The notes beneath the pieces were generated by a model that saw nothing but the letters and a program-made list of their open reading frames with translations, was not told the DNA's origin and did no database searches. Position numbers and translations under genes: made by a program. A DNA stretch of 25,705 nucleotides from a virus, in IMG/VR virus record IMGVR_UViG_3300032087_003584, positions 1 to 25,705 of that record; one strand, 5' to 3'. This document shows, piece by piece, positions 6,968 to 25,705 of the stretch (its first letter is position 1; every line of letters begins with the position of its first letter).

Positions 6968-6998
6968 GGCCGGTCAGTAATGGCCGGCCTTTTTATTT
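6968..6998 (+). terminator. Rho-independent terminator after fibre gene
   Basis: GGCCGG (6968-6973) pairs with CCGGCC (6984-6989) across a 10-nt loop and is followed by T5ATTT. It lies 24 nt after the fibre stop codon and before the HNH gene. It would separate the fibre transcript from the HNH/capsid segment, at least in part. Confidence 0.8.
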
Positions 6999-7011
6999 CC
7001 TCGGATAGACA

Positions 7012-7260
7012 ATGGCAACAAAGAAAAAAAATTACAAAGAGATATACAAGAAATACCACGCGGACCCAATCGACAAAAAACGCCGCGCGATGCGAAACAC
7101 AGCTCGTCGACGAATGGCGAAAGCTGGACTCGTAAAAAAGGGAGACGGTAAACACGTCGACCATATAAAACCACTTTCGAAAGGTGGAACCAACGGTCGA
7201 AAAAATCTTCGCGTGGTATCGGCGCGAACGAATCTTCGAAAAGGGAATCGCAGAAAGTAA
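7012..7260 (+). CDS. Small HNH-family endonuclease
   Basis: This 82-residue, very basic protein carries a HNH nuclease core at residues about 45-80: HVDHIKPLSKGG, N65 in KNLRVVS, then NLRKGN. The third motif position is Asn rather than His (a HNN variant), as in many small phage HNH proteins. No zinc-binding cysteines are present. The first 40 residues are Lys/Arg-rich and probably bind DNA. It is the only gene between a terminator and the capsid promoter, which fits a mobile insertion. A role in packaging or head processing is the alternative, because HNH proteins assist terminase in some phages. It has no strong SD site; GGATAGACA precedes the ATG. Confidence 0.85.
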   Translation: MATKKKNYKEIYKKYHADPIDKKRRAMRNTARRRMAKAGLVKKGDGKHVDHIKPLSKGGTNGRKNLRVVSARTNLRKGNRRK

Positions 7261-7263
7261 TTT

Positions 7264-7303
7264 TTATCATCATTTATCATCATTTATCATCATCATTATC
7301 ATT
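7264..7303 (+). repeat. G-free intergenic element 2
   Basis: It has three TTATCATCAT units (7264, 7274, 7284) plus CATTATCATT (7294-7303), identical over 40 bp to the elements at 4037 and 17795. It starts 3 nt after the HNH stop codon and ends directly against the -35 box of the capsid promoter, so here it occupies the place of an UP element (about -37 to -76). Confidence 0.95.
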
Positions 7304-11929: not shown

Positions 11930-12473
11930 AGGCGATGAGATTTCGATGTTACTTCGTGGTAGTGGATTCGATTACGTCGATAAACTTTTAGACCTAGCCG
12001 CACCGAAGACAAAGAAGCTCATACAAGACGAGTTCGAAAAGATATTAGACAACGCGCGCGCGAAGTGGTTGGTACGTGGAGCCAAGCCAGAAACGGTGGC
12101 ACAAGTGAAAGAACGAACATTCGCCGCGATGGTCAATACTGGAAAGTACACACCGGACGCGGCGCGCGTGATTATCGAAAAGATGGACATAGCCGGCAAG
12201 TTTAACGCCGATAACAGCTTTCGCAAGTCTCCAAAGTCGCAAGATTCGCGAGGAAAGTTACGAATGGGGATACGTGTAAACCAGAAATTTGAACTCGTCG
12301 CAACCTTAAATAACGACGCGCCGTACGCCTGGGCGATTAAAGTCGGAAAGAATAGCGATACCGACATGTCGTACGGTACACGTATATCGAACGAGTTATT
12401 ATGGCAACCAGCCAGAAAGATTACGGACAAAATCGCCGAATCGATGGCGAATGAAATCTTAAAGACAAGATAG
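11907..12473 (+). CDS. Tail or neck protein between chaperones and tape measure
   Basis: This 188-residue protein has no secure assignment. It has a helical N-terminus (EISMLLRGSGFDYVDKLLDL, then KTKKLIQDEFEKILDNARAK). It also has the pattern DAPYAWAIKVG near residues 144-154, which resembles the APYA..VE.GT strand of HK97 gp10-like neck/tail-completion proteins, and a closing helix (KITDKIAESMANEILK). Such genes usually precede the tube gene, so finding it here would be a rearranged order. GGAAGAG stands just before the ATG; the start overlaps the frameshift product by 23 nt. A minor tail protein is the alternative. Confidence 0.6.
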   Translation: MARKISVKGDEISMLLRGSGFDYVDKLLDLAAPKTKKLIQDEFEKILDNARAKWLVRGAKPETVAQVKERTFAAMVNTGKYTPDAARVIIEKMDIAGKFNADNSFRKSPKSQDSRGKLRMGIRVNQKFELVATLNNDAPYAWAIKVGKNSDTDMSYGTRISNELLWQPARKITDKIAESMANEILKTR

Positions 12474-20158: not shown

Positions 20159-20521
20159 ATGGACCCAAGTACATACCACGACGTCTGGATTAATCTCGCC
20201 ACAAATAGTCCGTTTCTTGGATGGATGATTTATTCGTACGTCTCCACAAATAAAGACTTGAAGGAGACGAGAGAACAGAGCCGGACAGAAGCGCGCGAGC
20301 TTCGCGCCGAAGCCAAAGCAGAAGAACAAGAGATACGAAAAAGATTCGACAAGGTTATCGAAGATTTAAACAAGGACCGAACACAACTGGTCGAAACATT
20401 TTCAAGTCGTATCGATTCTTTGGAACGTGGACAGCGTAAACTATTCGCAATCTTGGAACCAATGAAAGAACAGATAGTCGAGTTACGCATAAAAGAGAAG
20501 ATAAAAGAGGGCCAATCATAA
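20159..20521 (+). CDS. Holin-like membrane protein (BhlA/UviB type)
   Basis: This 120-residue protein has one N-terminal hydrophobic segment (residues about 11-29, INLATNSPFLGWMIYSYVS). A long, highly charged helix follows, with coiled-coil character over residues about 32-110. This layout, one membrane span and then a charged coiled coil, matches BhlA/UviB-type holins of phages and bacteriocin loci. It directly follows the lysin with AGGAGA before the ATG. It probably permeabilises the membrane and lets the lysin reach the wall. A virion or spanin-like protein is less likely. Its TAA overlaps the next ATG (TAATG). Confidence 0.7.
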   Translation: MDPSTYHDVWINLATNSPFLGWMIYSYVSTNKDLKETREQSRTEARELRAEAKAEEQEIRKRFDKVIEDLNKDRTQLVETFSSRIDSLERGQRKLFAILEPMKEQIVELRIKEKIKEGQS

Positions 20522-21006: not shown

Positions 21007-21086
21007 TTTATGAACTATCCGACATGGTCGTTATGATTTTATTGATTATTATCGCTTTACAACTGATTATCGACAATAAGATTTAA
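21003..21086 (+). CDS. Tiny single-span membrane protein, 27 residues
   Basis: The start overlaps the previous stop as ATGA (21003-21006). The product is almost entirely one hydrophobic helix (MVVMILLIIIALQLII) with acidic residues on the N side and NKI at the end. It is too small for a domain call. Its place at the end of the lysis cassette suggests an accessory holin, antiholin or similar pore protein. Its TAA (21084-21086) overlaps the stop of the leftward exonuclease gene (21083-21085 on the - strand). Confidence 0.6.
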   Translation: MIYELSDMVVMILLIIIALQLIIDNKI

Positions 21087-21643
21087 GCCAGTCGACGACC
21101 AAGCCAAGCCGCAAAACGCGCGCGAATCGCGAAATACCAACGTTTCCACAACGCACACCGCCAGAGCAAGTGGAACAGACGTTCGGTATCTTGCGCGTCG
21201 ATGTATGCGGTATGATTGGCAACCATAGACCATCCAAGATACGACCGTATATGGTCCAAAGCGTACGAACGACAATACGGTAAATGTTCACGCGCGAGGA
21301 CCACCGTATCGATATATCGGCGGTCGACGTATGGGTTACAGTTATACAGGTCCCACAGCTCACGAAGGAAAGACATATCGAACGAGGGATTGTGGCCGAT
21401 TATCGTTTTACCGTCTAGCATCTTCGCGGACCGTATCGCCACGTCTTGAGCTGGGACCGCGCCGAACCAGTCTTTTTCGTTATATCCGTTGATCTCCAAT
21501 GCTTTTGGCGAAGCGTATTCGATGTTCATTGGAATAACCTTGGCGTGGTACGATTCGTTTTCGGTAATAATCGCGATTTCGATTATTTCGTGTTGGTTTG
21601 GATTTAATCCGGTCGTTTCGATGTCGATTACCGCGTATTTCAT
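21083..21643 (-). CDS. DnaQ-like 3'-5' exonuclease (DEDDh)
   Basis: This 186-residue protein is a stand-alone exonuclease. Exo I is DIETTGL (D7, E9), Exo II is HNPSFDMSFL (D89), and Exo III is HTAYIDAQDT (H144, D149), giving the DEDDh set. It probably trims 3' ends of DNA or RNA using two metal ions. The C-terminal 25 residues are Trp/Arg-rich (WRCALWKRWYFAIRARF) and may contact nucleic acid. Its ATG overlaps the TGA of the upstream repressor gene (21640-21643), so the two are translationally coupled and made together. It is read opposite to every other gene here except the repressor. A proofreading role is possible, but no polymerase lies nearby. Confidence 0.88.
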   Translation of the reverse strand: MKYAVIDIETTGLNPNQHEIIEIAIITENESYHAKVIPMNIEYASPKALEINGYNEKDWFGAVPAQDVAIRSAKMLDGKTIIGHNPSFDMSFLRELWDLYNCNPYVDRRYIDTVVLAREHLPYCRSYALDHIRSYLGWSMVANHTAYIDAQDTERLFHLLWRCALWKRWYFAIRARFAAWLGRRLA

Positions 21644-21999
21644 TTTTTAAACTCCGTTCCATAGTCGAGTACATACTGGTATAACTCGCTGAATACCTCT
21701 TCGATTGGTTTGTTATCTTTATCGGCGACATACTCCAAAAAGAAGAAGAACAGGCGAAAGTTAGGAGAACCCACCCCTTTATCCCATCGCGACAACGTAT
21801 ACGGATGTATACCGGTTTCCATGGCGAAATCTTTAATCAACATGTCTTTCGGGCGATGCTTAGCATAGAACATGGACCAGCCGTTATTCATTACGATTTT
21901 ATGTTCTTTCGGCTTCGATTCGGTGGTCTCTTCGGTTTCTTTTGTCTTTTTCGGCGTCCATTCAGTTACCAGAACTTTTGGATTTATTTGTTTTCTCAT
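21640..21999 (-). CDS. HTH transcriptional repressor
   Basis: This 119-residue protein is probably the regulator of the divergent early operon. Residues about 53-80 form a helix-turn-helix of the XRE type (MLIKDFAMETGIHPYTLSRW). The N-terminal 35 residues are Lys/Glu/Thr-rich and probably flexible. The C-terminus is a short helical, acidic dimer-type region with no LexA-like serine peptidase, so induction by RecA-driven self-cleavage is unlikely. The ATG at 21999 was chosen over an upstream ATG at 22116, which would run through the promoter/operator region. The SD site is weak (AGGGAA). It may act at the palindrome 22075-22091. Confidence 0.75.
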   Translation of the reverse strand: MRKQINPKVLVTEWTPKKTKETEETTESKPKEHKIVMNNGWSMFYAKHRPKDMLIKDFAMETGIHPYTLSRWDKGVGSPNFRLFFFFLEYVADKDNKPIEEVFSELYQYVLDYGTEFKK

Positions 22000-22039
22000 G
22001 TGGTGTATTCCCTGTTTTTTGAAAAAATAATGTTTTGTG

Positions 22040-22068
22040 TTGCAATACGAAAATAGACCGGCTATGTT
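22040..22068 (+). promoter_or_regulatory. Early rightward promoter
   Basis: TTGCAA (22040-22045) and TATGTT (22063-22068) are separated by 17 bp. The predicted start is near 22075, at the first base of the operator-like palindrome. It would drive the early operon from 22128 onward and shares the TTGCA-type -35 of the capsid promoter. Confidence 0.65.
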
Positions 22069-22074
22069 TATAGA

Positions 22075-22091
22075 GTATTGACATTCAATAC
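22075..22091. promoter_or_regulatory. Operator-like palindrome
   Basis: GTATTGA-CAT-TCAATAC is a perfect 7-bp inverted repeat with a 3-bp centre. It covers about +1 to +17 of the early promoter, so a bound dimer would block transcription. A related imperfect palindrome, GTGTTGCAATAC (22037-22048), overlaps the -35 box with different spacing and may be a second, weaker site. Confidence 0.65.
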
Positions 22092-22127
22092 ACACAAACA
22101 CCACACCACCACACAACAGGAGACGAC

Positions 22128-22247
22128 ATGGACGCGATTATCTTCGTATCTATTTATATCGTAAAACCAAGCCTTTACGCTACAATGATTTTTTCAAATA
22201 TCGTTGCGAGCTTCGTAATCTATCAATCAATCACAAAAGGAGAATAA
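22128..22247 (+). CDS. Small hydrophobic early protein, 39 residues
   Basis: This is the first gene after the early promoter, with AGGAGA 6 nt before the ATG. The product is largely hydrophobic (IIFVSIYIV, then TMIFSNIVASFVIYQS), probably one or two membrane passes. It ends in KGE. Those last codons carry the SD site of the next gene (GGAGAA). The family is unknown. First genes of early operons often act on the host, but nothing in the sequence shows this. Confidence 0.6.
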   Translation: MDAIIFVSIYIVKPSLYATMIFSNIVASFVIYQSITKGE

Positions 22248-22250
22248 ACC

Positions 22251-22472
22251 ATGGATTATATCGATACTTATGTTCAATTTCAAAAGCTGACAGACTACTA
22301 TACATTCGGACGAGGGATGGTCGTATATCTCCACTACAAAGACCAACGAATCGAAAAGCGGTTTTCGTGTGTAGTCGACGCCATGAAATACGCAATCGAA
22401 CGAGAACAAGCGAAACAATTTCTTTCATCAGAAAAACTGACACGAACACCATATACCAAAACAGGAGAATAA
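22251..22472 (+). CDS. Early protein of unknown function, 73 residues
   Basis: I do not recognise this 73-residue protein. It appears to be alpha/beta with strands (GRGMVVYLHYK, then KRFSCVV) followed by one helix (DAMKYAIEREQAKQFL). It is soluble with no cysteine pair or obvious active site. It starts 3 nt after the previous stop with AAAGGAGA before the ATG, and ends in TGE*, again because the SD site of the next gene is encoded in its last codons. Small size and position suggest a host-interaction or regulatory protein, which is inference only. Confidence 0.7.
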   Translation: MDYIDTYVQFQKLTDYYTFGRGMVVYLHYKDQRIEKRFSCVVDAMKYAIEREQAKQFLSSEKLTRTPYTKTGE

Positions 22473-22475
22473 ACC

Positions 22476-22751
22476 ATGAACACATTTAACAAGTACGGCG
22501 ACGAGTACCCATTCGATAGTATGTATGCACAAACAATGGCCGATTACATGATTACACCACTTTACGACGAACTATCCCAAGTCGAGTGGAACATGTACCG
22601 AGATTTCGCGATTACCAAAGACATGTCAATCGAAGACATGGTCGCCTTTATGGTCTCCAAAGATAGCGGCGTACATAATCTTATCTTGGGACATTCGCCA
22701 CAATCACTGGCAGACCTTCAAACCGTATACAACGCACAATTCAATCAGTAA
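22476..22751 (+). CDS. Early protein of unknown function, 91 residues
   Basis: This 91-residue acidic protein is not recognised. It is Tyr/Met/Asp-rich in its first half (GDEYPFDSMYAQTMADYM) and helical later (SIEDMVAFMVSKDSG). The acidic, compact character resembles DNA-mimic or host-inhibitor proteins of early phage regions, but this is only a resemblance of composition. The SD site is GGAGAA, inside the last codons of the preceding gene. Confidence 0.7.
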   Translation: MNTFNKYGDEYPFDSMYAQTMADYMITPLYDELSQVEWNMYRDFAITKDMSIEDMVAFMVSKDSGVHNLILGHSPQSLADLQTVYNAQFNQ

Positions 22752-23182: not shown

Positions 23183-23579
23183 AAGCATAATCGAAGACAA
23201 GTTACGCGATATAAGCGAACACATGGAATACTTAGATAGAAACGTCGAAGACTTAGATTTCGTAATGAAACGAAGCCCCGGAGACCGCGAAATACACTTG
23301 GCACTATCCGAACTTTCTTGTATCGTTGCGTATCAAAACGAAATCATTAAAGGACTGGTCGAAGCGATTTCGATCAGTCCAGAAGAAGTGGAAATCGAAC
23401 GAAAAATCGTGGAGCTTCGAAAGACGTTCGAAGACTTCGACGAAAACGAAAAGGACCGCCACGAAATACGCCGCGATTTTCTCTTTTCATACCTGTATAC
23501 GTTGGACAGACTTAGTCGAGAAGACGTTCGACAAATGCAATCAATCGACAAACTCAAAAGGAGCAACCATGGCGCGTAG
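23175..23579 (+). CDS. Early coiled-coil protein of unknown function
   Basis: This 134-residue protein is almost all charged helix. It has an N-terminal segment (IIEDKLRDISEHMEYLDRNV), a central one (LSCIVAYQNEIIKGLVEAIS) and a third (EEVEIERKIVELRKTFEDF). Coiled-coil oligomerisation is likely. No catalytic motif is visible. The ATG at 23175 overlaps the previous stop region; the frame is open further upstream but that would overlap the whole of the preceding gene. It overlaps the next gene by 11 nt. Confidence 0.7.
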   Translation: MNRSIIEDKLRDISEHMEYLDRNVEDLDFVMKRSPGDREIHLALSELSCIVAYQNEIIKGLVEAISISPEEVEIERKIVELRKTFEDFDENEKDRHEIRRDFLFSYLYTLDRLSREDVRQMQSIDKLKRSNHGA

Positions 23580-23841
23580 TATTTTCGGGTCCGTAATCGA
23601 AGGACTTTTACCACAATCGAAATATAAGTATCGTTCGCAACTCGCCGCCGACATTGGCATACCGAAAGCGACGTTCTCTAATTGGATACATGGACGACAT
23701 AAACCGGAATACAACGCGGTCTTAGCTATCGCGCAAAGATTGAACACCGGCAAGTCGAAACAGTATCGCGAGCTCGTGTTCCAGCTCGTCGACGCGCTCG
23801 CGATGGATGAAGCAATCAGACAAGAGCGGTCGAAGAAATGA
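23569..23841 (+). CDS. Cro-like HTH DNA-binding protein
   Basis: This 90-residue protein carries a helix-turn-helix at residues about 22-57 (RSQLAADIGIPKATFSNWIH). The recognition helix is followed by a basic loop (GRHKPEYNAVLAIAQRL), typical of the XRE/Cro family, and then a C-terminal helix. It may compete with the leftward repressor at the early operator or regulate later genes. Its place is unusual: eighth in the operon rather than first, as lambda cro is. AAAGGAG lies 6 nt before the ATG at 23569. The stop overlaps the next ATG as ATGA. Confidence 0.78.
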   Translation: MARSIFGSVIEGLLPQSKYKYRSQLAADIGIPKATFSNWIHGRHKPEYNAVLAIAQRLNTGKSKQYRELVFQLVDALAMDEAIRQERSKK

Positions 23842-25480: not shown

Positions 25481-25705
25481 ATGGCACTAAAAGAAGAAAT
25501 ACAAAAATACGGTATCGACTGTTTCGTCGGTTATTCCGGCGGGAAAGATTCGACGGCGGTATGTTTACACCTCAAAGAACACGAAGTACCGTTTACGCCG
25601 GTTTTCGCTAATACTGGTTGGGAACACGAACAGACATACGAATACATCCAAGAAATCGAACAAATAATCGGACCAGTACACATGGTACAAAACGAAATCG
25701 AAGTC
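25481..25705 (+). CDS. PAPS reductase-like / ATP-pyrophosphatase protein (partial)
   Basis: The first 75 residues are visible; the window ends inside the gene. SGGKDS (residues 19-24) is the PP-loop that binds ATP in N-type ATP pyrophosphatases, and PFTPVFANTGWEHEQTYEYI matches the PAPS reductase/DndC-like group. Such proteins activate sulfate or handle sulfur, and in some systems modify nucleic acids. Which applies here cannot be told without the C-terminus. AGGAGA lies 4-5 nt before the ATG. It is the last visible gene of the early operon. Confidence 0.85.
   Translation, partial: MALKEEIQKYGIDCFVGYSGGKDSTAVCLHLKEHEVPFTPVFANTGWEHEQTYEYIQEIEQIIGPVHMVQNEIEV

Follow-up and report, generated by a model that had tools for sequence, protein, structure and literature searches.

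Introduction

The accessory genes rexAB of phage lambda are read together with the cI repressor gene. A related arrangement is described in lambda-imm434, where, according to excerpts of the published account, the accessory protein Hex is made from an ORF that overlaps the repressor ORF and is carried on the repressor mRNA (PMC3564112). Two further systems bring nucleases of the DEDD type close to a regulator. Excerpts of the work on Pseudomonas phage Fc02 describe olg1 (sie1), a 7.9-kDa protein made from the repressor transcript that excludes phages and has a partial match to the DEDDh family (PMC9936078), and excerpts of that on the diDNases of Actinomycetes and Clostridia describe a DEDD nuclease that adjoins an HTH gene on mobile elements (PMC11706625). 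The openly accessible literature that we searched yielded no study in which a full-length DEDDh exonuclease is linked to a repressor in phages. The layout itself can be seen in the genomes of the Triavirus/Phietavirus phages phi2958PVL, LH1, vB_SauS_320 and vB_SauS_I73, where a DEDDh exonuclease comes directly after an HTH repressor on the same strand, 15 bp away, the two facing the early genes.

Here we describe such a pair in the IMG/VR virus record IMGVR_UViG_3300032087_003584, the whole of which, 25,705 bases, forms the window analysed. The exonuclease is a core gene of an integrase-less phage group and appears to have come to lie behind a repressor in one sub-clade, and we consider what it might do there.

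Results

The repressor and exonuclease genes share a conserved overlap

The features of the locus are listed in Table 1. Tiling of the window with ORFs gives five that run leftward, namely the repressor, the exonuclease and ORFs at 6974-7273, 11972-12367 and 22231-22485, each of the last three overlying rightward ORFs. The initial annotation, which took the repressor and exonuclease for the only leftward genes and had them share an ATGA, is exact in coordinates, strand and overlap. The rightward genes up to 21006 are of terminase, portal, capsid, tail and lysis type. A rightward early module begins at 22129 and comprises small ORFs, an HTH protein, RusA, a SWIM-type protein and a primase-like protein, the last two labels being taken from homologues in the record of a relative, L003. 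At the end of the window the start of a gene with a PAPS-reductase domain (25481-25705; PF01507, E = 1.9e-7) is truncated where the record stops.

Table 1. Positions of the features discussed, numbered along the window
Feature	Position	Strand	Details
Conserved late gene (anchor for collecting the group)	20159..20521	+	From the group search
DEDDh 3'-5' exonuclease gene	21083..21643	-	186 aa; class from sequence and model
Exonuclease C-terminal tail	21086..21163	-	Residues 161-186; basic, aromatic-rich; helix 165-180 in the model; beyond the matched exonuclease core
ATGA overlap, repressor stop and exonuclease start	21640..21643	-	Same in L002 and L003
HTH repressor gene	21640..21999	-	119 aa; Cro/CI-type five-helix fold at residues 37-113 and disordered N-terminal arm in the model
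GGAG, Shine-Dalgarno-like	21652..21655	-	Within the repressor gene, 8 nt ahead of the exonuclease ATG
Divergent promoter region	22000..22128		Repressor to first early ORF (ATG 22129); from ORF coordinates
Operator-like site GTTTTG-TGTTG-CAATAC	22032..22048		From pattern search
Operator-like site GTATTG-ACATT-CAATAC	22075..22091		Perfect palindrome, 43 bp from the first site; from pattern search
Second HTH protein, early operon	23569..23841	+	90 aa; Phage_CI_repr, E = 6.2e-6

The pair, with the same ATGA overlap, is present in two relatives, L002 and L003, where the exonuclease is 92% and 70% identical to the copy in the window and the repressor 92% and 57%. In searches of viral contigs the exonuclease as query gave 11 loci, the repressor one and a profile of the three repressors two; the L003 repressor escaped the single-sequence search and was located by reading the DNA. 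Against L002 the dN/dS is 0.089 for the exonuclease and 0.098 for the repressor (against L003 the synonymous sites are saturated), and judged by these ratios both genes are under purifying selection. As L002 and L003 retain both the pair and its overlap, and the dN/dS is low, the pairing is not due to chance.

The ATGA overlap suggests that translation of the exonuclease is coupled to that of the repressor, perhaps loosely. Since the exonuclease has its own Shine-Dalgarno-like site ahead of the ATG, which is identical in L002 and reads GAGG in L003, it could be translated independently. It is the overlap, too, that points to co-transcription of the two genes. A scan of the repressor/early region for sigma-70 promoters gave sites no more numerous than in shuffles, and a search downstream of the exonuclease found no simple consensus terminator.

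The HTH protein faces paired operator-like sites

The repressor has no confident match in Pfam (HTH_26, E = 0.23), and its homologue in L003 matches phage regulators weakly (1.6e-4). The model is confident across about residues 40-110 and has five helices (residues 37-48, 55-62, 66-73, 81-95 and 99-113) arranged in a lambda-repressor-like HTH fold. It aligns with C.EcoT38IS with a Z of 9.1 and rmsd of 2.9 over 79 residues, with C.Esp1396I with a Z of 8.4 and with the P2 C protein with a Z of 6.2; Foldseek alone, run with the same model, gave nothing below E = 0.001. Assigned through its modelled fold rather than through Pfam, the protein would be a Cro/CI-type regulator.

Between the repressor and the first early ORF there are exactly two TTG-N5-CAA sites in the window, and the same number is found in the corresponding regions of L002 (at 80 and 123 of the record, 43 apart) and L003 (at 7754 and 7775, 21 apart). 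The spacings of 43, 43 and 21 bp are near whole helical turns. Over the whole records the pattern occurs 7 times in the window and 6 times each in L002 and L003, the sites at which 6/6 of the arm bases match being confined to the repressor/early regions. When the window was searched for GTATTG-N5-CAATAC with up to two mismatches, there were 4 matches against 0.88 expected and the best two lay in the divergent region, where the related pattern with a spacer one base shorter has no match. Taken singly, the palindromes are marginal against single-base shuffles (p 0.06 for the window and 0.20 for L003). As the sites recur in three genomes with spacings near whole turns, it would seem likely that they are the operators of the HTH protein, to which binding is predicted from sequence. 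The naming of the HTH protein as a repressor is borne out by these pairs, which argue for its control of a divergent switch, by the Cro/CI fold, and by the position of the leftward unit facing the rightward early operon. The second HTH protein, within that operon, is a candidate for a Cro- or CII-like regulator.

The exonuclease is a core gene of the group

To avoid bias toward the pair, the phage group was collected through the anchor late gene, which gave 28 contigs and, with the window, 29 records. Pfam RNase_T is found exactly once in 26 of these; the three records without it (L023, L031 and L035) stop 0.8 to 1.6 kb beyond the anchor gene. Each of the 26 exonuclease genes runs against the late genes. 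For 17 of these records the neighbours were inspected by eye, and the remaining nine were assigned to clades by exonuclease identity. Clade A (n = 3) has the repressor upstream of the exonuclease with the ATGA overlap. In clade B (n = 13) the exonuclease stands alone. In clade C (n = 7) it is followed by two small genes and then by a gene matching head-decoration and tail-fibre families, and this position before virion-like genes would mean late expression there. In clade D (n = 3) the start of the exonuclease is overlapped by the gene of a hydrophobic 44-aa protein, then come two HTH-like genes and, where the contig reaches that far (n = 2), a methylase downstream.

A repressor of the window type is thus upstream of the exonuclease in only 3 of the 26 records, which rules out the pairing as a rule across the group. 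Since the gene is single-copy in 26 of 29 records yet has the repressor upstream in 3 of 26, the exonuclease, on this distribution, predates its pairing with the repressor, and its retention in genomes that lack this repressor favours a general role.

The 44-aa protein of clade D is encoded at 8673-8807 of L040, 8012-8146 of L041 and 8705-8839 of L042. Residues 1-24 of the window repressor match one of the clade D HTH-like proteins (hhalign E = 1.3e-5). A similar starting arm of the form M-R-R/K-x-x-x recurs in several small HTH-type proteins of the group, encoded on either strand; the comparison of these arms for homology covered clade A against clade D.

Across clades the anchor gene is 68-79% identical and the exonuclease 32-47%. 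Repeated swapping of the exonuclease for unrelated ones at a fixed site was considered and ruled out, as between clades its identity tracks that of the other genes of the genome, gene by gene, and these diverge equally or more. The anchor is the outlier, other genes being far more diverged between these clades or not found, and may have been exchanged between phages or be unusually constrained. The exonuclease tree is uncertain between clades, where the branches are long.

The group lacks integrases

Neither tyrosine (PF00589) nor serine (PF07508) integrases, as expected of an integrating temperate phage, were found in any of the 29 records, the search having covered these two families. Three of the genomes look complete, their contig ends overlapping at 94% identity in the L003 record of clade A, 98% in one record of clade B and 93% in one of clade C, with implied unit lengths of about 27.5, 30.5 and 29.7 kb, respectively. 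Because the ends overlap, the missing integrase in these three is not an artefact of fragments. In the L003 record (G028) the end overlap is about 1.6 kb long but only 94% identical, which means that variants have been joined in the assembly. The absence of integrases from 29 of 29 records fits a carrier state rather than integration. With a repressor but no integrase, such phages could persist as carriers or in plasmid-like form, or could be lytic and use the repressor to time their genes.

No cultured relatives were found for the terminase, capsid, tail protein, primase-like protein or anchor among 50,697 phage records. A prophage in a bacterial genome was also sought and rejected: the scan of genome contigs with the anchor gene gave a single 9.8-kb contig of an Altibacter MAG, with no host flank. 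This contig, L128, is either a weak hint of the host or a mis-binned phage.

The exonuclease belongs to the DEDDh class

The exonuclease matches Pfam RNase_T (E = 2.9e-16) and PHROG 192 (phrog_192, 'DNA polymerase exonuclease subunit'; 4.9e-33), and contains the DEDDh Exo motifs D-x-E, D and H-x4-D. The residues Asp7, Glu9, Asp89, His144 and Asp149, which we take to be catalytic, are invariant across seven homologues; among 34 relatives the first four are invariant and Asp149 is present in at least 90%. The AlphaFold model (pLDDT 93) has an RNase H-like DEDDh fold, and its best matches include the folds of PolC, RNase T and epsilon. It aligns with S. aureus DinG with a Z of 21.0 (rmsd 3.8, 179 residues) and with the DnaQ domain of S. 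thermophilus with a Z of 20.1 (rmsd 2.1, 161 residues). A search of the PDB with the profile of the 34 relatives placed the PolC exonuclease domain 2p1j first (2.8e-41), followed by DinG, PolC, DnaQ, epsilon and RNase T (1.4e-20). The DEDDh identity is firm, and neither the fold nor the sequence matches decide the substrate.

Acidic residues are absent from the C-terminal tail in 12 of 15 sequences, the other three having one each. An amphipathic membrane helix in the tail was considered and set aside as a lead only, as the amphipathicity is seldom above that of shuffles of the same residues.

Repressor-linked exonucleases occur outside the group

Neighbours were listed at 60 exonuclease loci, 51 of which yielded an exonuclease ORF. 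A Pfam-confirmed HTH gene lies directly upstream on the same strand in at least three (L014, L091 and L094), a lower bound since Pfam was run on promising neighbours only. Downstream of the exonuclease there is a tyrosine-integrase-like ORF in L014 and a serine recombinase in L094. In L082 the exonuclease lies between an upstream IrrE-type peptidase and a downstream integrase, and in L060 an HTH-like ORF with no Pfam match overlaps the exonuclease by 20 bases. L014 is Staphylococcus phage O1-69, the exonuclease of which matches 129 phage records.

Seventeen annotated regions were opened, and in 6 a repressor-type gene is directly upstream of the DEDDh exonuclease and an integrase downstream: the unrelated temperate Staphylococcus phages O1-69, phi2958PVL, vB_SauS_I73, LH1 and vB_SauS_320, and the Streptococcus satellite Javan739. 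The other 11 have no such layout, several being chromosomal PolC or DinG genes. The regions were picked by promise, so 6 of 17 is not a frequency, and four of the six are near relatives. The check called for by the initial annotation, whether the pair occurs elsewhere, is thus answered in the affirmative by L002 and L003 and, independently, by the five Staphylococcus phages and the satellite.

In O1-69 the exonuclease (L014, 3713-4510), lying between repressor and integrase, has an N-terminal hydrophobic hairpin, and in Javan739 the exonuclease (L145, 3013-3939), which overlaps the HTH repressor, has a C-terminal TM2 membrane domain; that of phi2958PVL has a BRCT domain. As the outside enzymes differ in these extra parts and are 20-30% identical to that of the window, multiple origins of the layout are probable. 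The repressor-linked DEDDh exonuclease is thus a recurrent arrangement.

Discussion

We lean, by a little over even chances, towards a leftward switch operon in which the repressor and exonuclease are made together, the exonuclease likely serving in general DNA trimming, with exclusion as a possible by-product. Dimers of the short Cro/CI-type repressor would occupy both palindromic operators between the repressor and the early module and shut off the rightward early genes, and probably also the repressor's own promoter. The exonuclease would be made from the repressor message via the ATGA overlap, and would be produced both before repression builds up and in any state that the repressor maintains. 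We infer that a core gene came to lie behind the repressor in this sub-clade, and that its product may trim intracellular DNA (3' ends and single strands, of the phage or incoming) beside the host replication machinery. General intracellular trimming seems the most likely role because the group is without an integrase and without a detected family-A polymerase. The core status of the enzyme without the repressor likewise points to a general role, one put under immunity control in the repressor-linked clade. The genes, their overlap, the paired sites, the conservation and the core status can be read from the sequence, which supports the operon and switch well, whereas a single transcript, coupling, repression, substrate and role are inferred. 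The interpretation in the initial annotation is therefore supported in part.

A tentative alternative, which we hold possible rather than probable, is that the enzyme is a helper of lytic replication, acting in trans in proofreading or end-trimming for replication by the host polymerase, with the repressor operon merely its route to early expression. Its nearest relatives are the exonucleases of PolC, DinG and epsilon, in keeping with the PHROG label, and the group encodes primase-like proteins, VapE-type helicases and RusA but, in a search of the 29 records with PF00476, no family-A polymerase. In four more distant records, L007-L010, the exonuclease does follow a VapE-type helicase gene on the same strand, after a gap of 385 bases in L007-L009. 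The generalisation that stand-alone exonucleases are found with replication genes therefore holds for these four and fails within the group, in 0 of 26 records: wherever the neighbours were read the exonuclease is opposite to the early genes, and in no record does it share a strand with the replication genes. Clade C also retains the enzyme, although the initiator protein encoded in the early module of that clade is a different one, and this again speaks against a replication helper. The gap upstream of the exonuclease in L007 and L010 contains iteron-like repeated ATCTGTCATT units.

Exclusion by a repressor-linked exonuclease is, by analogy with the outside precedents, a fair hypothesis. That the enzyme is dedicated to it, being made with the repressor in a carrier state and degrading incoming phage DNA, perhaps at the membrane via its basic hydrophobic tail, seems unlikely. 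Such a role would suit the order repressor, exonuclease, integrase in the five Staphylococcus phages and Javan739, and the hydrophobic parts found with several of the enzymes (the N-terminal stretch of O1-69, the TM2 domain of Javan739 and the 44-aa protein of clade D). The repressor-transcript protein of Fc02, with its partial DEDDh-family match, does exclude phages according to the excerpted account (PMC9936078). In PADLOC the window exonuclease matches a CRISPR-linked DEDDh model (9.3e-26) and the candidate PDC-S48 (4.6e-23), matches that may only reflect the shared fold; the repressor has no match among the PADLOC defence models. Against dedication to exclusion, the exonuclease is present in 26 of 29 records, mostly without a window-type repressor, and genes for exclusion tend to be accessory. 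The six examples from outside the group were chosen as promising and are not homologous operons, the tail is no more amphipathic than shuffles in most sequences, and the enzyme of phi2958PVL has its BRCT domain and no membrane part.

A broader version, that repressor-linked DEDDh exonucleases are recurrent, independently assembled entry-exclusion nucleases of prophages or carrier states, often anchored in the membrane, where they would degrade a second phage's DNA, is speculative and decidedly improbable. The anchors would be the hairpin of O1-69, the TM2 domain of Javan739, the 44-aa protein of clade D and, in this non-integrating group, the basic aromatic tail. Least probable is an RNA turnover enzyme like RNase T or oligoribonuclease that tunes host or phage transcripts, since, although RNase T ranks high among the structural matches of the model (Z 18.5, rmsd 2.5, 164 residues), the sequence is closer to the exonuclease domains of DNA polymerases (2p1j well ahead of RNase T in the profile search) and the fold does not decide the substrate.

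Should the exonuclease be produced under repression, its expression would be tied to immunity itself, making it a nuclease of the prophage or carrier state. This would bear on how phages with a repressor and no integrase live, whether as carriers, as plasmid-like prophages or lytically with the repressor as a timer.

In the excerpts of the report on lambda-imm434, Hex guards the repressor from RecA and is not described as a nuclease (PMC3564112). The Fc02 protein is too small for a full DEDDh domain, is encoded upstream of the repressor and belongs to a transposable phage, as far as the excerpted text goes (PMC9936078), and the diDNases, in the excerpts of their description, are dinucleotide-specific NrnC-like enzymes with a proposed role only (PMC11706625). 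Javan739 is alike in that its HTH repressor overlaps the DEDDh exonuclease, by 11 bp, on a strand that ends in an integrase; it differs in being a satellite element and in the TM2 domain of its exonuclease. The Staphylococcus aureus phages that share the layout have an S24 repressor, a 306-aa BRCT exonuclease 28% identical to that of the window, and an integrase downstream. The window pair, by comparison, has a short repressor, no S24 or BRCT match in either protein, an ATGA overlap and no integrase, so that it is not a staphylococcal lysogeny module; the same layout in the Staphylococcus phages nonetheless provides ready laboratory systems.
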